Positions 47,635 to 62,587 of a stretch of DNA of 64,000 nucleotides are shown here, piece by piece. The notes under the pieces are model-generated. The model searched no databases. It was given only the letters and a program-made list of their open reading frames with translations, and was not told the origin of the DNA. The first letter of the stretch is position 1. Each line of letters starts with the position of its first letter. A program made the translations under genes and the position numbers. The stretch comes from Streptomyces roseifaciens (GTDB lineage: Bacteria; Actinomycetota; Actinomycetes; Streptomycetales; Streptomycetaceae). The stretch covers positions 868,001 to 932,000 of the forward strand of contig NZ_LNBE01000004.1 in the NCBI RefSeq assembly GCF_001445655.1, read 5' to 3'.

Positions 47635-47934
47635 CGTACGGATGACATCGCGGTTTCAGGCCCTCGACGGCCGGGCACAATCCGGTAGCGCAGCGGGCAA
47701 CGCCGCCCGCTCTGTGCTGTGTCCGGCGGGGCCGGGCCGGGCGATCCCCAGTGCTTCCGGCAGCTCGCCGCCTTCACCGCAGTGTCCACATGCTGGACCG
47801 GTGCTTCCGCTTTTCGAGAAGCGCCCCATCATGTAACCTGCACCAAATTTCTTCCGCAGAGGGCCAACGTCGTCCCTCGGCACATGCACCGGCCGCACCG
47901 GCCGGGACTGCCAAGACGACGACGGGAGCCGCCG
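47635..47934 (+). other. Long leader region of gltB
   Basis: About 300 nt with no gene I can support. GTAAC-N6-CAAAT at about 47834-47849 half-matches the GlnR box (GTNAC-N6-GAAAC), which would fit nitrogen control of gltB, but the second half deviates. GTCCACATGCTGGACC at about 47783 forms a short hairpin. GGGAG precedes the gltB ATG. Promoter position is not clear. Confidence 0.4.
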
Positions 47935-53953
<6,019 letters not shown>

Positions 53954-53971
53954 CCCTCCCCGAAAAGCTCG

Positions 53972-54014
53972 CGGCGCCTGCCCCACCCCGACCACAGGTG
54001 GCAGGCGCCGCGCT
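53972..54014. terminator. Terminator between gltD and the convergent lectin-like gene
   Basis: 13-bp perfect inverted repeat, arm CGCGGCGCCTGCC, with a 17-nt loop, 18 nt past the gltD stop. It lies between convergent genes and probably serves both directions. Confidence 0.8.
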
Positions 54015-54038
54015 GTCGTACCCGCGCCGTACCGGCCG

Positions 54039-54704
54039 TCACCCGGTCCGGCGCACCAGCAGATCGCGGAACTCCACCTTCGCGTCCTCGGTGTACACCC
54101 CCACGCTGCCCTCCCGGTAGGGCCGCTCGTGGTCCTCGTAGGCCACCAGGCCCCGGCCGTCGACGCTCACCTCCATGCGTGCGCCGCGCTGCGCGACGCG
54201 GACGGAGGACCACTCGCCTACGGGGAAGCTCCCCTGGCCGGTCGCCAGGAAGCGCTGCCCGCCCTCGTAGGCCGGGTCGCGCTTGCCGAGCTCCCAGCCG
54301 TTGGGCTTGAGGGTGACGTAGTAGAAGTGCTCGGGGTCGGTGTACGCCCACAGCAGCCACGGCACCTCCCACGGATTGGGCTCGGGCGTGCGCAGCTGGG
54401 CGACGGTCCGCATGCGCGCCTCGTAGTCCAGATCCCCGAAGCGGTCCGTGGAGACGATCAGTCCGGCGTGGGTCTCGTCCGGCACCCGGGCGGGCAGGGG
54501 GGCGAGGAAGAGGCCGTCGTGGCGGCCGATGTTCTCGCCGTGGCCGTCGAAGACCGACCGCCACGGGCCGTGGACCGAGCCCTCGGCCCACGGCCGCTCC
54601 GGCTCGCCGTCGCCGGACCAGAGGCTGCTCGCCGCGAGGGCGGCGCCCGCCACCACGACGGCGGCGAGCAGCGCGAGACCGAGCAGCCGCTGAACTCTCG
54701 TCAT
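54039..54704 (-). CDS. Exported lectin/glucanase-fold protein (DUF1080-like)
   Basis: 221 residues from ATG 54704, overlapping the epimerase stop (ATGA). An N-terminal hydrophobic segment (LLGLALLAAVVVAGAALA) acts as signal or anchor; no lipobox Cys. The rest is a jelly-roll of the concanavalin-like type: WRSVFDGHGENIGRHDGLF, YEARMRTVAQL, FYYVTLKPNGWELGK, WSSVRVAQRGARMEVSVDG and a closing VGVYTEDAKVEFRDLLVR. Such domains bind or cut polysaccharides. It is the last gene of the exopolysaccharide-type operon, so the polymer made there is its likely ligand. Confidence 0.8.
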   Translation of the reverse strand: MTRVQRLLGLALLAAVVVAGAALAASSLWSGDGEPERPWAEGSVHGPWRSVFDGHGENIGRHDGLFLAPLPARVPDETHAGLIVSTDRFGDLDYEARMRTVAQLRTPEPNPWEVPWLLWAYTDPEHFYYVTLKPNGWELGKRDPAYEGGQRFLATGQGSFPVGEWSSVRVAQRGARMEVSVDGRGLVAYEDHERPYREGSVGVYTEDAKVEFRDLLVRRTG

Positions 54705-55891
54705 GCCGTCGAGTATGACCCCGGCCCCTCGGTGCGGGAGGCGACCAGTTCGGGCCCGCCGCCGTCGTCCGGGTCGGCGCCGAAGTCCTCCGCGAGCTGG
54801 GCGATGATGCGGTCGGTGGCGTGTCCGTCCCCGAAGGGATTGCCCGCCGTGGCCATCCGCTCGTAGGCGGCAGGATCATCCAAAAGGTGGACGGCGGCCT
54901 CCAGGATGCACTCCGGTTCGGTGCCCACGAGCCGGGCCGCGCCGGCCTCGACCGCCTCGGGGCGCTCGGTGGTCGTGCGCAGCACGAGGGCGGGCTTGCC
55001 GAGGGTGGGGGCCTCCTCCTGGATGCCGCCGGAGTCGGTGAGGACCAGGTCGCATCCGGCGAGCGTGGCGGAGAAGTCGAGGTAGCCGAGCGGTTCGACG
55101 ACCTCGATGTGCGGGTGGCCGGTCAGCTCCGGCAGGAGGGCCTCGCGGACCGCGGGGCTCTTGTGCAGCGGCACCACCATCTCCACGTCGCCGCGGTCGG
55201 CGAGCCGGCACAGGGCCCGGCCCATGGAGCGCATCACCGCGCCCTGGTTCTCGCGGCGGTGCAGGGTGACCAGCACGCGCCGCAGGCCGGTGCGGAAGAG
55301 GCAGCGGCCGGTGCCCTCGGCCAGCACCCACAGCAGGTTGTCGATGACGGTGTTGCCGGTGGTGAACACTTCGGCGTCCGGGACGCCTTCGGCCGCCAGG
55401 TGGGCCGCGGCGCGCTCCGTGGGCGCGAAGTGCCAGCGGGCCATACGCCCTATCAGGCGCCGGTTGAGCTCCTCCGGGAAGGGGTTGTCGAGGACGCCGG
55501 TGCGCAGGCCGGCCTCCACGTGGGCGATGGGGACGTGCTCGTAGAACGCGGCGAGGGCGCCGGTCAGGGCGGTGGTGGTGTCGCCCTGGACGACGACGAG
55601 GTCGGGGCGCCCGGCACGGATCACCTCGCCGAGGCCGTCCACGAGGCGGGCGGTGAGGGTGGACAGCTGCTGCCGCTCGCGCATGACGTCGAGCCCGGTG
55701 TGGACCGGTACGCGCAGCAGGTCCAGCATCTGGTGGAGCATCTCGCGGTGCTGGCCGGTGGTGACGACGAGCGGCTCGAAGAGCGGGGAGTGCGCCATGG
55801 CACGGGCCACGGGCGCCAGTTTGATGGCCTCGGGTCGGGTGCCCAGTACGAGCATGGCGCGTACGGGCGCGGTGATGAGGTCAGCGGACAT
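54701..55891 (-). CDS. wecB: UDP-N-acetylglucosamine 2-epimerase (non-hydrolysing)
   Basis: Interconverts UDP-GlcNAc and UDP-ManNAc. 396 residues from ATG 55891 with GGGAGAA 3 nt upstream. GT-B fold motifs: LVLGTRPEAIKLAPV, VVQGDTTTAL, IAHVEAGLRTG, LVTLHRRENQG, LTDSGGIQEEAPTLGKP and LRTTTERPEAVEAG. These fit the non-hydrolysing enzyme rather than the hydrolysing NeuC type. It follows the glycosyltransferase gene by 80 nt and probably supplies its donor sugar. The gene symbol is given for the enzyme type. Confidence 0.95.
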   Translation of the reverse strand: MSADLITAPVRAMLVLGTRPEAIKLAPVARAMAHSPLFEPLVVTTGQHREMLHQMLDLLRVPVHTGLDVMRERQQLSTLTARLVDGLGEVIRAGRPDLVVVQGDTTTALTGALAAFYEHVPIAHVEAGLRTGVLDNPFPEELNRRLIGRMARWHFAPTERAAAHLAAEGVPDAEVFTTGNTVIDNLLWVLAEGTGRCLFRTGLRRVLVTLHRRENQGAVMRSMGRALCRLADRGDVEMVVPLHKSPAVREALLPELTGHPHIEVVEPLGYLDFSATLAGCDLVLTDSGGIQEEAPTLGKPALVLRTTTERPEAVEAGAARLVGTEPECILEAAVHLLDDPAAYERMATAGNPFGDGHATDRIIAQLAEDFGADPDDGGGPELVASRTEGPGSYSTA

Positions 55892-55971
55892 GGTTCTCCC
55901 TGGGAAAGGCCTGTCGCGGGGAAGGCCTGACGGGCGGGTGGAGTGCGGGGGTTCGGGTGCGCGCGGTCGCT

Positions 55972-57231
55972 TCAGGTGCGCGCCGTCTTCAGCCACGTCT
56001 GCTTGCCGGTGAGCATCCGCCACAGTCCCCACCAGCCGGCCGCGAACCAGATGTAGCCGTAGAAGATGAAGACGTGCGAGAGCAGGATCGAGCGCACGAG
56101 CCCGAGGCCGCGTTCGCGCCGGCGGTAGACGAATCCGTACGCGTAGGCCGCGGTGAAGGAGAGCACGTACGGGCCGATGATCCACATCGGGGAGATCAGG
56201 GCGCGCCCGGCCTGCACGGAGCCGATGACGGTGCCGGCCACCGCGACCAGGAAGGACAGCGGCAGCAGGGAGGTGAGCAGGATCAGGACCGGGCTGGAGA
56301 GGTGGTAGAGCAGGTCGACGGCGGCGCGGGTGGGGACGGAGCGCAGGATCAGCGGCACCAGCCCCGCCGACTGCAGGTGGCCCTGGAACCAGCGGGAGCG
56401 CTGGCGCACCAGGCGCCGTACGTCGAGCACGGCCTGCTGGGAGACGGCCGCCGCGGTGCAGTGCTGGTTGGTCCAGCCGCGGGCGATGAGGCGGACCCCG
56501 AGGTCGAGGTCCTCGGTCAGCGAGTCGCTCCAGGGCCCGCCGGCCGTCTCGCCGGGCGGGGCGAGGGAATCCAGCGCGGCGAGCCGCATGAACTGTCCGT
56601 TGCCGCCCATTCCGACGCTGCCGATATAGCGCCGGGCGCACTGGAAGATATCGCCGTAGATGACGAATTCCATGTCCTGGAGCCGGGCCAGCAGCCCTTG
56701 GTGGCGGTTGTACATCCGTACGCCGACCTGGGTGGCGCCGGTGCGCGGATTGTCGAAGAAGGGGTCGACGGACTGGACCACGTGTTCGTCGAGGCGGCCG
56801 TCGGCGTCGACGACGCAGACGATGACGTCGCGCGGGTCGTAGCCGTCGAGCAGGCCCGACTCGCGCAGGTGCCGTATTCCGGCGTTGAGGGCGGCGCCCT
56901 TGCCCCGGCGGGCATCGGGCAGGGTGCGCTGCAGCAGCCGGACGCGCTCGGGGTCGGCGGCGCGGGCGACCTCCGCGGTCCCGTCGTCGGAGCCGTCGTC
57001 GATCACCAGGGCGAGGAAATTGCCTGCGGGCAGGGCAGTGATGCGGGCCAGGCTCTCGGCGAGAACCTTTTCCTCGTTCAGACAGGCGAGCAGAAAGACG
57101 TACAGACGCCGTTGGCGGGGGCCGCGGACGCGGCGCACCCGGCGCCGGGAGAGCAGGAAGAGAGCGGTGTTGTAGCAGCCCGCCATCACGATGATGGCGA
57201 TGGCGGATCCCAGCAGGATCTCGCCGGTCAA
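55972..57231 (-). CDS. Processive family-2 glycosyltransferase (polysaccharide synthase)
   Basis: 419 residues; the start is TTG 57231, overlapping the stop of the small upstream gene (TTGA). One membrane helix (about 5-25), then the GT-A domain: VIDDGSDDGT, VVDADGRLDEH, DSLTEDLDLGVR and QRSRWFQGH (QxxRW), the four motifs of hyaluronan/cellulose/PNAG-type synthases. Four C-terminal helices (about 295-315, 325-345, 355-370, 388-405) could form the export channel. RGKGAALNAGI is also typical. Gene neighbours suggest UDP-ManNAc or UDP-GlcNAc as donor. Confidence 0.9.
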   Translation of the reverse strand: MTGEILLGSAIAIIVMAGCYNTALFLLSRRRVRRVRGPRQRRLYVFLLACLNEEKVLAESLARITALPAGNFLALVIDDGSDDGTAEVARAADPERVRLLQRTLPDARRGKGAALNAGIRHLRESGLLDGYDPRDVIVCVVDADGRLDEHVVQSVDPFFDNPRTGATQVGVRMYNRHQGLLARLQDMEFVIYGDIFQCARRYIGSVGMGGNGQFMRLAALDSLAPPGETAGGPWSDSLTEDLDLGVRLIARGWTNQHCTAAAVSQQAVLDVRRLVRQRSRWFQGHLQSAGLVPLILRSVPTRAAVDLLYHLSSPVLILLTSLLPLSFLVAVAGTVIGSVQAGRALISPMWIIGPYVLSFTAAYAYGFVYRRRERGLGLVRSILLSHVFIFYGYIWFAAGWWGLWRMLTGKQTWLKTART

Positions 57232-57446
57232 GGCCGGCCGCCGGGGCTGTGGTCCATGGTGGTGGCGCGGACGGCGAACCAGAGTTTGACGGCGATGATG
57301 ACGAAAGCGCTCGCACAGTACAAGAGGAATCCGGCCCCGGCCGCCTCCTGCAATCCGCGGGCAAATGGAATGCCCGGTAGCACTTCCGGTGCCGCAGTGA
57401 GCCCGGCCATGGGCAGGACGGATCCCAGAGCGGGTTTTCCGTACAT
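57228..57446 (-). CDS. Small membrane protein preceding the glycosyltransferase
   Basis: 72 residues from ATG 57446 (GGGGGAGAA 6 nt upstream); an earlier in-frame start at 57482 is less likely. One strong membrane helix (AGAGFLLYCASAFVIIAVKL) and a weaker hydrophobic segment before it. It overlaps the glycosyltransferase start by 4 nt. I do not recognise the family. By analogy with small accessory subunits of polysaccharide synthases it could help the glycosyltransferase; this is inference. Confidence 0.65.
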   Translation of the reverse strand: MYGKPALGSVLPMAGLTAAPEVLPGIPFARGLQEAAGAGFLLYCASAFVIIAVKLWFAVRATTMDHSPGGRP

Positions 57447-57770
57447 GAGTTCTCCCCCGTATGTCGCCTCGATGCGAGGCAAGGCATGCGCAGGGAAGGT
57501 ATCAGATCAGACAGGTACTACTGTCGGACTTGATGAGAATTGTTGGAGCGGAATCTCAAATTCGGTGAACGTACCGGTAATTATGCCTGGTGATCGCTTA
57601 TCTGTGACGGGTGTGACCTCTGGTCTGCACCAGGATGGCTGCACGGAACTGCACATTCGAGATCGAAGTTGTCTATTGACATACATCCTTCCCGGCCAGA
57701 AGAATCTGGCGCCTGTCGGGCCCCCGAAGGAACGGGGGTGGCGACCGCTGCATTACCCAGGGGGAATTTC
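57447..57770. other. AT-richer divergent promoter region of the polysaccharide operons
   Basis: 324 nt between the divergent operons, clearly less GC-rich than its surroundings (for example GAATCTCAAATTCGG, GGTAATTATGCC). It has a small inverted repeat GACAG-GTACTA-CTGTC at 57510-57525 and a consensus-like promoter at 57676 for the plus operon. The deacetylase leader (57706-57770) has a GCCCCCG...CGGGGG hairpin near 57719. No gene is supported here. Confidence 0.6.
57676..57705 (+). promoter_or_regulatory. Promoter of the deacetylase operon
   Basis: TTGACA at 57676-57681 and AAGAAT at 57700-57705 with an 18-bp spacer, a good match to a housekeeping-sigma promoter and unusual in being so canonical for this genome. 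Leader of about 60 nt to the ATG. Confidence 0.6.
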
Positions 57771-59585
57771 ATGCAAAAGAAGTGCTGGAGATCCAGGAAA
57801 GTCCGGATCTCCGCCGTCGTCATGCTCCTCGCCGCCCTGCTGGGCGGCGTCGTGCTTTCCCGGAGCGCCGAGGGCGCGATATCCCGGCCGCGCGCCACCG
57901 ACGCCGTGAACCCGGTCTCGCTCTCACCGAACAGCACCAAGGACCTCGCCGCCGCGGTGAAGGCCCGGATCGGCTCGGACCGGCTGCGCCGCGCGGGCAG
58001 GCTGGCCCTGACCCTCGCGCCCCTCACGAAGGCCCCCGCCGCCCAGGCGGCCGCCGCTCCGGCCGGCACCTCGGCCCTCGTCCTGTACGACAACGCCGGC
58101 CCCTACGGGCAGCTGGGCGAGCTCTACGCCATGGCGACGGCCAACCTCGCCGGCCACTTCGGCACCGTCACCGCCAAGCCCGTCTCGGCCTACACCGCCG
58201 GCATGGTGAACCAGTACACCGCCACGGTCTACCTCGGTTCGACCTACTACGGGGGCACCATCCCCGACGCCGTCCCCGCCGCCTTCTACCAGGACGCGCT
58301 GGCCACGAGCCGGCCCGTGACCTGGATCGGCGACAACATCTGGAACATGGCGGGCGCCGTCGGCGTCACGCAGTTCAAGCAGAAGTACGGCTGGGACCCC
58401 ACCAACTCGTACTACGAGTCCGGCGGTTCCGTCGGGAACATCAACCAGGTCACGTACAAGGGACGGCAGCTGACCCGGAAGATCCCCGCCGGCCAGGACG
58501 GGGGAGTGCTCCACCCGGACATCCTCACCGGGCCCGGCTACCCGGCGGTCACCCGCCTCGCCGAGGCCAAGGACGGCACCTCCGGCGCCGTCAGCCCCTG
58601 GGCGATCCGCTCCTCGAACCTCACCTACCTCGGCGAGATGCCCTTCGCCTACGTCTCCGAGAGCGACCGCGTCATCGTCTTCGAAGACCTCCTCTTCGAC
58701 GCCCTCGCCCCCGCGACCGCCGAGCGCCACCGGGCCTTCGTGCGGCTGGAGGACATCAGCCCCAAGGCCGAGCCCGCCCAGCTGCGGGCCATCGCGAACT
58801 ACCTCAAGTCGCAGAACATCCCGTACGGGATCAACGTCATCCCGGTCTACAAGGACCCCAAGGGCACCTACAACAACGGCGTCCCCGAGACCGTCACCCT
58901 CGCCCAGGCCCCGGCCGTCGTCGCCGAGCTGAAGCACATGCTCGCCAACGGCGCCGTCCTGATGAACCACGGCTACACCCACCAGTACGGCACGGCGAAC
59001 AACCCCTACAACGGCGTCACCGGCGACGACTTCGAGTTCTTCCGCGCCCACGTCGACACCTCGGACAACGTGATCCTCGACGGGCCGCCCGCGGAGGACT
59101 CCACCGTCTGGGCCCAGAGCCGGGTCACCCAGGCCCTGGCGGGCTTCGCCGCCGCCGGACTGCCGAAACCGGCCTTCTGGACCACTCCGCACTACGCGGC
59201 CTCCGCCACCGACTACCGTGTCTTCGGCCAGAACTACTCCGCCCGCCTGGAGCGCTCGTTGTACTTCTCCGGCACGCTCACCGGTGGCACACCGGACACC
59301 GGCCGCTACATCGGCCAGTTCTTCCCGTACGCGGTCAAGGACGTCTACGGGACGACCGTCCTGCCCGAGAACATCGGCAACTACGAGCCCGACGCGTACA
59401 ACAACCACCCGCCCCGCTTCCCCGCCGACCTGATCGCCTCGGCCAAGGCCAACCTGGCCGTCCGCGACGGCGTGGCGAGCTTCTTCTACCACCCCTACTA
59501 CCCGGTGGCGCCGCTGCAGCAGACGATCGAGGGCATCAAGGCCCTCGGCTACACCTTCGTCGGCCCCGCGGACCTGAAGCAGTGA
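57771..59585 (+). CDS. DUF2334-family polysaccharide deacetylase, exported
   Basis: 604 residues from ATG 57771 with AGGGGGAA upstream. N-terminal basic segment and signal/anchor helix (ISAVVMLLAALLGGVVLS). A first domain (about 70-270) resembles a ThuA/Rossmann-like region (LVLYDNAGPYGQLGELYA, WIGDNIWNM). The DUF2334 carbohydrate-esterase domain follows with RLEDISPKAEP, LMNHGYTHQYG, and FWTTPHYAA, containing the Asp and His metal ligands. DUF2334 is related to CE4 NodB deacetylases. It should remove acetyl groups from an amino-sugar polymer outside the cell. Its stop overlaps the start of the hydrolase gene (GTGA). Confidence 0.88.
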   Translation: MQKKCWRSRKVRISAVVMLLAALLGGVVLSRSAEGAISRPRATDAVNPVSLSPNSTKDLAAAVKARIGSDRLRRAGRLALTLAPLTKAPAAQAAAAPAGTSALVLYDNAGPYGQLGELYAMATANLAGHFGTVTAKPVSAYTAGMVNQYTATVYLGSTYYGGTIPDAVPAAFYQDALATSRPVTWIGDNIWNMAGAVGVTQFKQKYGWDPTNSYYESGGSVGNINQVTYKGRQLTRKIPAGQDGGVLHPDILTGPGYPAVTRLAEAKDGTSGAVSPWAIRSSNLTYLGEMPFAYVSESDRVIVFEDLLFDALAPATAERHRAFVRLEDISPKAEPAQLRAIANYLKSQNIPYGINVIPVYKDPKGTYNNGVPETVTLAQAPAVVAELKHMLANGAVLMNHGYTHQYGTANNPYNGVTGDDFEFFRAHVDTSDNVILDGPPAEDSTVWAQSRVTQALAGFAAAGLPKPAFWTTPHYAASATDYRVFGQNYSARLERSLYFSGTLTGGTPDTGRYIGQFFPYAVKDVYGTTVLPENIGNYEPDAYNNHPPRFPADLIASAKANLAVRDGVASFFYHPYYPVAPLQQTIEGIKALGYTFVGPADLKQ

Positions 59586-60658
59586 ACGCCCGGAGGAGGG
59601 CGGCCGGCGCGCTGCTCGCGGCCGCCCTCCTCCTCGCCGGGTGCTCCTCCGGCCGGGGAGGGGAGGGCGGGGAGGAGGGGCCCGGACCGAGCACGGGCAC
59701 CCGCCCCGGGGACGGAAAGGCGGCGGGACTGCGCGGCATCACGCTCCCCTCGTGGAACACCGGCGACTACAGCAGCCCCGACGCCGCGGCGTACCTGCGG
59801 CAGATCGCGGCCACCGGCGCCCGCTGGGTGACCTTCACCCCCACCTGGTACCAGGACGGCGCCGCCGAGGCGGACATGCACACCACCGGCGAGACCGCCG
59901 GCGACGACAGCCTCCGGCACATCATCGGGCTCGCCCACCGGACCGGCCTCAAGGTCATGCTCAAACCCCACGTCGACCTCGCGCAGGGCGGCGACCGGGC
60001 GGGCATCCGGCCGCACGACCCCGGCGCCTGGTTCAGCGCGTACGAGCGCTTCATCACCCACTACGCGAAGCTCGCCGAAGACACGGGGGCCGAACAGTTC
60101 GCCGTCGGCACCGAACTGGCCGGCACCTCCCGCGACGGCGCCCGCTGGAGCAAGGTCGTCCGGGCCGTCCGCGCGCAGTACCGCGGGCCGCTGACCTACG
60201 CCGCCAACTACGACGAGTACCGCACCGTCCCCTTCTGGGACGACCTCGACGTCATCGGCATCGACGCCTACTGGCCCCTCGCCGACCGCCCCACCGCCGA
60301 CGCCGCCCGGCTGCGCGACGCCTGGAAGCCCATCACGCGGGAGCTCGCCGCCTTCTCCGCCCGCCACCACCGCAGGATCCTCTTCACCGAGGCCGGCTAC
60401 GTCAGCCAGCGCGGCGCCACCACCGCGCCCTACTCCTGGACCGTCAGCAAGAGCGCCGGGGAGGACGAACAGGCCGCCGCCTACGAGGCGCTGCTCACCG
60501 CCCTCGACGGAAAGCCCTGGTGGGCGGGGGTCTGCTGGTGGATGTGGGACGACTGGCCCGACAGCGGCGAGACCCCGCGGCGCCTCGCCTACACCCCGCA
60601 TGGCAAGCCGGCCGAGAAGATCCTGCGCGGGCACTGGCGCAACGGCGGTACGGGTTGA
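59582..60658 (+). CDS. GH113-like glycoside hydrolase lipoprotein
   Basis: 358 residues from GTG 59582. Signal peptide with lipobox LLLAGCSS, so it is a lipoprotein processed by Lgt and LspA. A TIM barrel follows: LPSWNTGDYSSPDAAAYLRQ, ARWVTFTPTWYQDG, and GLKVMLKPHVDL are the hallmark of the GH113 mannanase-like family. Candidate acid/base Glu lies in AVGTELAGTSRD and the nucleophile Glu in ILFTEAGYVSQR. GH113 enzymes characterised so far act on beta-1,4-mannan. Coupled to the deacetylase, it may trim or release the polymer made by the divergent operon. Confidence 0.88.
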   Translation: MNARRRAAGALLAAALLLAGCSSGRGGEGGEEGPGPSTGTRPGDGKAAGLRGITLPSWNTGDYSSPDAAAYLRQIAATGARWVTFTPTWYQDGAAEADMHTTGETAGDDSLRHIIGLAHRTGLKVMLKPHVDLAQGGDRAGIRPHDPGAWFSAYERFITHYAKLAEDTGAEQFAVGTELAGTSRDGARWSKVVRAVRAQYRGPLTYAANYDEYRTVPFWDDLDVIGIDAYWPLADRPTADAARLRDAWKPITRELAAFSARHHRRILFTEAGYVSQRGATTAPYSWTVSKSAGEDEQAAAYEALLTALDGKPWWAGVCWWMWDDWPDSGETPRRLAYTPHGKPAEKILRGHWRNGGTG

Positions 60659-60676
60659 GGGCAGCCGGGCGCGGCC

Positions 60677-61564
60677 CTACGTGTCGCAGTCGAGCACGGT
60701 GCGGCAGAGCCCGCAGCGTGCTCGTACCTTTCCCCGTACCGGCACCCGGATGCGCTGGTGGCACGTCGGGCACGGGAAGCTGACCCGCAGCGGGCCGTCG
60801 CCCTCGAAGGCGTAGTCCCGCTCGCCCGGCGTGCCGGGCCTCGCGCTCTGCACGGCGCGCCGGTCGCGGGCGTAGCGGTGGCGGCCGAGCCGCCCGGCCG
60901 CCGCGAGCGGGGGCCGCCGGCCGTCGCGCCGGGCCTCCGCCAGGCCCTTCACGTAGGCCTCGTACGCCTGGGGGCTGGTGAACCACGGGGAGGGGTCCTC
61001 GCCGAAGGCCAGCGCCCGCTTGGCGATGACGTAGCCGAACTCCTCCGGGGTGAGGTAGCCGAGCTTCTGCGTGGAGACCGACGACTCGCGGTAGGCGTCC
61101 AGCAGCAGCCAGCCCGCCCCCAGGTAGGCCGCCGCGGTGTCGGTGAGGATCTCGTTGTCCCGCGTGCCGGGGAAGGCGAGGCCGAGCCGGTGCAGGTAGA
61201 CGTGCATGACCTCGTGGGAGAGGGCCGCGCCGATGTCCCTGCGGTGGGTCTTGAAGCGGGAGTTGAGCTCGATGAAGTACTCCGGGCCGGCGGCGAGCTC
61301 GATGCTGCCCGCGTGCCGCATCTCGCGGAAGCTGACGATCATCCGGGCGTCCGGCAGCCGCAGGTGCCGCACCATCGCGCCGGCGACGCGCTGCACGCCG
61401 AGGTAGGGATTCTCCTCGTCGGAGAAGGCGACGTCGGACGGGGGCACGCTGAGCCCGAAGCTGTGCACCGTGTCGTAGGAGAGGCGCTTGTACAGCGCGG
61501 TGATCGCGGCGCGCACCGTCGCGATGTGCGGAAAGCCGTGCACGATCTCGATGCCGGTGCCCAC
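60677..61564 (-). CDS. HExxH putative zinc metalloprotein with C-terminal zinc ribbon
   Basis: 295 residues from GTG 61564 (GGGGTGG upstream). ALSHEVMHVYLHRLGL near residue 115 has the HExxH zinc-protease motif and a downstream His; DNEILTDTAAAYLGAG follows with acidic residues that may be the third ligand. The C-terminus has CPTCHQRIRV and RARCGLCRTVLDC, a treble-clef zinc ribbon. No signal peptide, so it is probably cytoplasmic. I do not know its substrate; the layout recalls SprT-like proteins but the match is loose. Confidence 0.7.
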   Translation of the reverse strand: MGTGIEIVHGFPHIATVRAAITALYKRLSYDTVHSFGLSVPPSDVAFSDEENPYLGVQRVAGAMVRHLRLPDARMIVSFREMRHAGSIELAAGPEYFIELNSRFKTHRRDIGAALSHEVMHVYLHRLGLAFPGTRDNEILTDTAAAYLGAGWLLLDAYRESSVSTQKLGYLTPEEFGYVIAKRALAFGEDPSPWFTSPQAYEAYVKGLAEARRDGRRPPLAAAGRLGRHRYARDRRAVQSARPGTPGERDYAFEGDGPLRVSFPCPTCHQRIRVPVRGKVRARCGLCRTVLDCDT

Positions 61565-61774
61565 GCGTGACCACCCCCTGGGGTCCCCCTGCCGGCCGCT
61601 GCGCCCCCTGTCCACTGTACGGGCGGGGCCCCGCCGGCGGGCAGTGCGCCGGGCTGGCCGAAACGGGGTGCTTGTCGCACGTTCGTCCGATCCTCATAAT
61701 CGCACCGCGCATCGAAGGTTCGATTCCGGTAATCGGACGGCCGGGATTGTCATGAGCCTGACATTCGTGCGTAA

Positions 61775-62587
<813 letters not shown>

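Follow-up and report, generated by a model that had tools for sequence, protein, structure and literature searches.

A six-gene cassette at positions 54039..60658 of a 64,000-nucleotide stretch of Streptomyces roseifaciens DNA (contig NZ_LNBE01000004.1; hereafter the window, meaning the whole stretch) probably encodes a synthase-dependent exopolysaccharide system making a polymer of N-acetylmannosamine (ManNAc), which would be partly de-N-acetylated outside the cell. We put the probability of this reading at about 0.7. An original prediction for the window had proposed that the locus makes, deacetylates and trims a ManNAc-containing polymer, and this is still the reading best supported by gene families, motifs, fold and conservation, although ManNAc itself is deduced from the company of the genes. 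All six predicted open reading frames (ORFs) were found again at unchanged coordinates, and the locus is laid out as follows.

54039..54704, minus strand: exported or anchored lectin-fold protein (LamG/3-keto-disaccharide-hydrolase-like), from PF06439 and an N-terminal hydrophobic segment
54701..55891, minus strand: non-hydrolysing UDP-N-acetylglucosamine (UDP-GlcNAc) 2-epimerase of the WecB/MnaA type, from TIGR00236
55972..57231, minus strand: processive GT2 glycosyltransferase, 419 amino acids (aa), TTG start, from PF13641, PF13632, PF00535 and motifs
57228..57446, minus strand: 72-aa protein resembling a single-transmembrane protein, at the head of the minus operon, from the ORF and hydropathy
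57447..57770, no strand: divergent promoter region between the operons, with two conserved blocks in a 62-sequence alignment
57676..57705, plus strand: sigma-70-like promoter TTGACA-18-AAGAAT for DUF2334-GH113, a conserved block
57771..59585, plus strand: DUF2334 protein, exported or anchored, with an amidotransferase-like N-domain and a CE4-like deacetylase barrel, from PF10096 and a structure model
59582..60658, plus strand: GH113 lipoprotein, beta-1,4-mannanase-like, from PF22612 and the lipobox LAGC

Stop and start codons overlap by 4 nucleotides between the small-protein gene and GT2 (TTGA), between epimerase and lectin-fold genes and between DUF2334 and GH113, and only 80 bp separate GT2 from the epimerase gene, which fits two compact, divergent operons. 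The ORFs, their families and the overlaps in both operons thus confirmed the tightly coupled, divergent arrangement first proposed.

The supply of the sugar is indicated by the epimerase, which scored 429 bits against TIGR00236 (cut-off 210), has homologues in the PDB including 3ot5 (E 3e-101) and would provide a linked source of UDP-ManNAc. The gene in the cassette is one of only two of its kind in the S. roseifaciens genome.

The gene set is conserved. A GT2 orthologue was found in 10 of 101 Streptomyces-level genomes, nine at 670 bits or more and one diverged at 313 bits, and a GH113 orthologue (at least 340 bits) was found in the same ten and in one more genome, where the gene starts at the end of a contig; the co-occurrence gives a Fisher p of 5.7e-13, with the kinship of the genomes ignored. 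The five larger genes stand together in all ten loci (the window and L048-L056). In one genome (G006) the order is DUF2334-GH113-GT2-epimerase-lectin on one strand, and this different arrangement argues that the linkage is not merely inherited order. Named genomes were also scanned with the GT2 alignment and the best 80 of 141 relatives were taken, a selection which favours close relatives, so that the resulting frequencies are not an unbiased rate. By tblastn, the partners near GT2 in these 80 loci were DUF2334 (80/80), the lectin-fold protein (78/80), the epimerase (76/80), GH113 (72/80) and the small protein (at least 65/80). The last count is a lower bound, because a similar small ORF could be seen by eye upstream of GT2 in L136, L139, L146 and L147, of which BLAST had found only those in L139 and L147.

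Among the hosts of the cassette are Streptomyces, Kitasatospora, Actinacidiphila, Actinomadura, Actinocorallia, Planomonospora, Planobispora and a metagenome-assembled genome of Solirubrobacterales. It can be plasmid-borne, as it was found on a 316-kb linear plasmid (NZ_CP108510.1) of Streptomyces sp. NBC_01237. In a sequence titled Streptosporangium nondiastaticum, the cassette is 85-95% identical to Streptomyces ones; another source has the name Streptomyces nondiastaticus, and the title may be a matter of naming. Five Planomonospora/Planobispora loci (L143, L149, L150, L151 and L153) carry two side-by-side DUF2334 genes with no GH113 nearby.

When PF10096 alone was used as the query, matches were found in 29 of 396 genomes of the phylum. 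Neighbourhoods were drawn for the ten genomes, other than that of S. roseifaciens, which had a full-length match above 165 bits, leaving out 18 with weaker matches. A cassette-type GT2 was present in seven of the ten, and six of these seven also had a WecB-type epimerase. The original prediction had called for conservation of the gene set across Streptomyces, and the outcome is strong: complete in all ten Streptomyces loci for the five larger genes, in every one of the 80 GT2 loci for DUF2334, and, when approached from DUF2334, in seven of ten neighbourhoods for GT2. Gene fusions were also found. DUF2334 and GT2 form a single ORF, deacetylase first, in L218, L221, L222 and L224 (one family of distant relatives), DUF2334 is fused to the lectin-fold protein in L225 and L226, and GT2 is fused to the lectin-fold protein in the Solirubrobacterales locus L155. 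These fusions tie the synthase, the deacetylase and the lectin-fold protein into one process.

The GT2 protein matched PF13641 at 83 bits (cut-off 27), with further matches to PF13632 and PF00535 and no MshEN domain in the same Pfam scan. It has the motifs DAD142-144, TED239-241 and QRSRW277-281, which are invariant across a 10-row alignment of cassette orthologues, and several membrane segments. Among curated NCBIfam models the closest is that of XrtP-associated glycosyltransferases, NF053846, whose cut-off of 520 is well above the 280.6 bits scored. In the 37-row tree, the 17 DUF2334-linked GT2s form one group (support 93/95) beside the XrtP-type and other paralogues, and the whole actinobacterial set is separated, with support of 100/100, from the Listeria synthase PssC and from PgaC, IcaA and the PgaC-like proteins of Streptomyces. 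BcsA, NfrB and the Comamonadaceae, Sphingobium and Paenibacillus rows, which have long or awkward branches, were left out of this second tree and were all in the first, where NfrB and BcsA also fell outside the cassette GT2 group; by BLAST, the cassette GT2 matched E. coli NfrB at E 0.035. In the phylogeny proposed in the original prediction, the GT2 thus stood well apart from PgaC, IcaA, PgaC-like proteins and PssC, the references to which this result applies, the trees being without named MatB, hyaluronan synthases, NodC, and lipid and teichoic-acid transferases.

Another 15 GT2 matches in the 101-genome sample are paralogues, with 32-42% BLAST identity. An epimerase-like match (37-49% to the cassette epimerase) lies near 12 of them, and neither DUF2334 nor GH113 was found beside any of the 15 in loci of about 4 kb. 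One such GT2-WecB pair is in the S. roseifaciens genome itself (L058, 9347-12095; G000:C4 near 363389), adjoining a response regulator, a histidine kinase and valS; its GT2 is of the XrtP-associated type, at 695.7 bits for NF053846.

The cassette could instead make a polymer of GlcNAc, resembling poly-N-acetylglucosamine (PNAG) or chitosan, as a second MatAB-type system, with the epimerase serving something else nearby. The GT2 does show distant similarity to PgaC/IcaA, at 66 bits against the PNAG synthase model TIGR03937, although with a cut-off of 422 this places it outside that class. MatB likewise couples a GT2 with a CE4 deacetylase domain, according to PMC5972031, and the S. roseifaciens genome had no PgaC-like match at E <=1e-30, so the cassette could fill the PNAG role. 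We consider this explanation unlikely, since the GT2 is fully separated from the PgaC/IcaA/PgaC-like group, the epimerase accompanies it in nearly all of the 80 loci, and GH113 is a family of mannanases, not of chitosanases or PNAG hydrolases.

The DUF2334 protein matched PF10096 at 188 bits (cut-off 26). This was its sole Pfam match, with none to CE4, and it is therefore not filed as CE4; against PDB sequences there was nothing, or only E 0.41-0.8. A structure model built on a 67-row alignment reached a predicted local distance difference test score (pLDDT) of 95.8, compared with 60.9 for an unused model from the ten close orthologues only. In a structure search the model matched CE4 deacetylase folds and carried their Asp/His/His metal motif, and E327, D328, H400, H404, H474 and H574 are kept in 68-69 of 69 DUF2334 rows. 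Agd3 (CE18) was absent among the fold matches listed, and a viral fold library returned generic deacetylase-like matches only. Judged from the model, the Streptomyces protein would work like a CE4-like, NodB-fold de-N-acetylase.

The GH113 lipoprotein scored 206 bits against PF22612 (cut-off 27) and matched the mannanases 4cd6 and 3civ in the PDB at E 1e-36. Both catalytic glutamates, E178 and E270, align with those of 4cd6 and are invariant in 77/77 cassette rows. H130, D138, W231 and Y273 are also constant in these 77 rows and variable in 20 other rows, which include one cassette member (L010); they were considered as ManNAc-recognition residues, and no tie to ManNAc could be made. The use of GH113 as a strict marker of the cassette was rejected, as 8 of the 80 loci are without it and it also occurs elsewhere. 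Eight non-cassette GH113 loci were mapped and no cassette partner was labelled in them, gene calls being absent in L161 and poor in L159. In another family of the class (L158, 9345-12687), a GH113 with 55% identity to that of the cassette lies beside an EpsD-like glycosyltransferase and a Wzy_C ligase-like protein.

Solved GH113 structures are beta-1,4-mannanases, and this suggests a beta-1,4 linkage in the polymer. The same structures would suit an O-acetylated (gluco)mannan, in which GT2 would use GDP-mannose, DUF2334 would remove O-acetyl groups and GH113 would be an ordinary mannanase; the CE4-fold matches of the DUF2334 model include the acetylxylan esterases 7fbw and 2c71. However, the cassette contains no gene for GDP-mannose and yet has a UDP-GlcNAc 2-epimerase in 76 of 80 loci, and the epimerase, GT2, DUF2334 and lectin-fold genes recur with no GH113 nearby in L139, L146, L150, L155, L223, L225 and L226. 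In our view a (gluco)mannan is unlikely, slightly more so than the GlcNAc polymer.

UDP-ManNAc is a precursor of teichoic-acid linkage units and of secondary wall polymers. The cassette might accordingly decorate a wall glycopolymer or lipid-linked glycan, where ManNAc would form a linkage unit or repeat of short length, and make no free exopolysaccharide, and MnaA is described as supplying a secondary wall polymer of this kind in PMC11464976. This is very improbable: the GT2 has several membrane segments and the TED and QxxRW motifs of processive enzymes, and its partners are enzymes of extracytoplasmic polymers. Moreover, no adjacent gene outside the cassette was common to all ten loci, in a comparison that included no search aimed at undecaprenyl-linked or TagA-like genes.

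The lectin-fold protein matched PF06439 at 36 bits (cut-off 27), weak but above the threshold, with no significant match among PDB sequences (best E 0.11). The 72-aa protein had no Pfam or NCBIfam match and is a candidate small subunit of the synthase.

In the system that we propose, the epimerase would convert UDP-GlcNAc to UDP-ManNAc, from which the GT2 in the membrane, probably together with the 72-aa protein as a subunit, would build a chain and export it across the membrane. Once outside, the chain would lose some of its N-acetyl groups to DUF2334 and be cut or released by the GH113 lipoprotein, and the lectin-fold protein may bind or guide it at the synthase. What the data show directly are the families of the genes, the catalytic residues, the CE4-like fold, the coupling within operons, the conservation and the fusions. 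From these we infer ManNAc as the sugar, the beta-1,4 linkage, N- rather than O-deacetylation, and a secreted matrix polymer as the product.

Several points weigh against the proposed ManNAc polymer. The donor sugar is not fixed by the GT2 sequence, other uses of UDP-ManNAc exist, and O-deacetylases are also among CE4-like folds. Four of the 80 loci, and also L218, gave no match to the epimerase, and GH113 was missing from eight of the 80 and present away from the cassette. There was no GT2 in three of the ten DUF2334 neighbourhoods (L219, L220 and L227), of which L220 is a 3.5-kb contig and the other two have their matches less than 3 kb from where a contig ends, and these neighbourhoods cover the ten genomes with the stronger matches. 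The support of 93/95 for the DUF2334-linked GT2 group is also under the starred threshold.

A more specific possibility, to which we give a little less than even odds, is a so far undescribed, actinobacteria-wide pathway whose product, the C2 epimer of chitosan, would be a cationic poly-beta-1,4-mannosamine that has lost part of its N-acetyl groups. DUF2334 would then be a dedicated poly-ManNAc de-N-acetylase acting at the synthase, and GH113 the hydrolase. DUF2334 acting at the synthase would explain its fusions with GT2 and with the lectin-fold protein. If so, DUF2334 beside WecB and GT2 would mark ManNAc matrices across phyla, and at least three GT2 lineages would be in use (the cassette type, NfrB-like and PssC).

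If the proposed ManNAc system is correct, many Streptomyces and their relatives would possess, next to the systems for the cellulose-like polymer and PNAG, a third one for a matrix polysaccharide, built on a sugar not considered for the Streptomyces matrix in the openly licensed papers searched. It would provide a testable activity and substrate for the uncharacterised domain PF10096, a possible non-plant substrate for GH113 enzymes, and marker genes for finding ManNAc matrices. A cationic polymer could also bear on hyphal clumping, which is relevant to fermentation.

With regard to expression, the sigma-70-like block 5' of DUF2334 was present in 49 of 62 orthologous intergenic regions, a count made with two alternative patterns; the shuffle control (1/12400) applies to the narrower pattern only. 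Rfam gave nothing at gathering thresholds over 53000-61800 of the window, and a riboswitch explanation was therefore dropped. The cassette is flanked by gltB and gltD (glutamate synthase; 47719-53956), and gltD lay inside the fetched stretch in 51 of the 80 GT2 loci, one a weak match only. Downstream, 60677-61615 encodes a protein whose HEVMH motif resembles that of metallopeptidases, and 61796-62587 a trypsin-like secreted protease, with both family names assigned by eye.

No study of the cassette in actinobacteria was found in the openly licensed literature. The closest precedent is a Clostridioides difficile 630 locus with a GT2/BcsB pair, GH113, WecB and a CE4-like deacetylase, which was predicted to have the same product in 2020 (PMC7710045). 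The idea is therefore already in print, for another phylum and as a prediction. That locus, likened here by description, has a BcsA/BcsB-like pair, whereas ours has no BcsB, small transmembrane and lectin-fold proteins, and a GT2 of the actinobacterial group.

The analogy with the Listeria Pss exopolysaccharide, on which the original prediction leaned, holds in part. According to PMC10172500, Pss is a beta-1,4-ManNAc polymer that also contains galactose, and the L. innocua copy (L166) likewise combines a GT2 with DUF2334, there in one operon. The synthase is PssC according to PMC4125290, and not PssA as first stated; it is 22.8% identical to the cassette GT2 over 382 residues and elsewhere in the tree, which places the two outside orthology. 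Pss also has BcsB (PssD) and a diguanylate cyclase/degenerate GGDEF receptor (PssE), whereas no matching ORF lies between or flanking the six genes of the cassette, and no epimerase or GH113 is annotated in the 13-kb L. innocua stretch. The L. innocua DUF2334 at the PssB position (L166, 4317-5816) appears degenerate at most catalytic positions, and deacetylation is therefore proposed for the Streptomyces enzyme on its own features and not by parallel with Pss.

The E. coli Nfr/NGR system (nfrB-nfrA-ybcH with wecB) resembles the cassette in its WecB-dependent GT2, and a ManNAc polymer has been proposed as its product (PMC8669472 and PMC8669469). NfrB is, however, of a different GT2 lineage, with an MshEN domain binding cyclic di-GMP and an outer-membrane porin, NfrA, and the cassette falls outside the Nfr type. 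On a Comamonadaceae plasmid (L170, 4773-13719), wecB, an NfrB-like GT2, a 100-aa protein, DUF2334, an NfrA_C tetratricopeptide-repeat protein and DUF4434 lie in one run, which links an Nfr-type system to DUF2334; EAL and PAS proteins are nearby.

MatAB is similar in combining a GT2 with an extracellular deacetylase, and the DUF2334-GT2 fusions recall the CE4-GT2 order of MatB (PMC5972031). MatB, counted among PNAG synthases by its published homology, has a CE4 domain and makes PNAG, whereas the cassette has DUF2334, the epimerase, GH113 and a GT2 outside the PgaC-like group. The XrtP type of NF053846 provides the nearest curated model and has a paralogue beside WecB in the same genome, but the cassette GT2 forms a separate group in the tree, and the paralogues had no DUF2334 or GH113 beside them in their 4-kb loci. 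DUF2334 relatives are named YdaL in several sources, and the Bacillus subtilis ydaJ-N operon, likened by description, has the cyclic di-GMP receptor YdaK; PMC5422440 describes it as a cryptic exopolysaccharide operon in which two proteins, YdaM and YdaN, are putative glycosyltransferases. Set beside these systems, the finding is real, and the cassette is the actinobacterial version of a kind of system that is already known.

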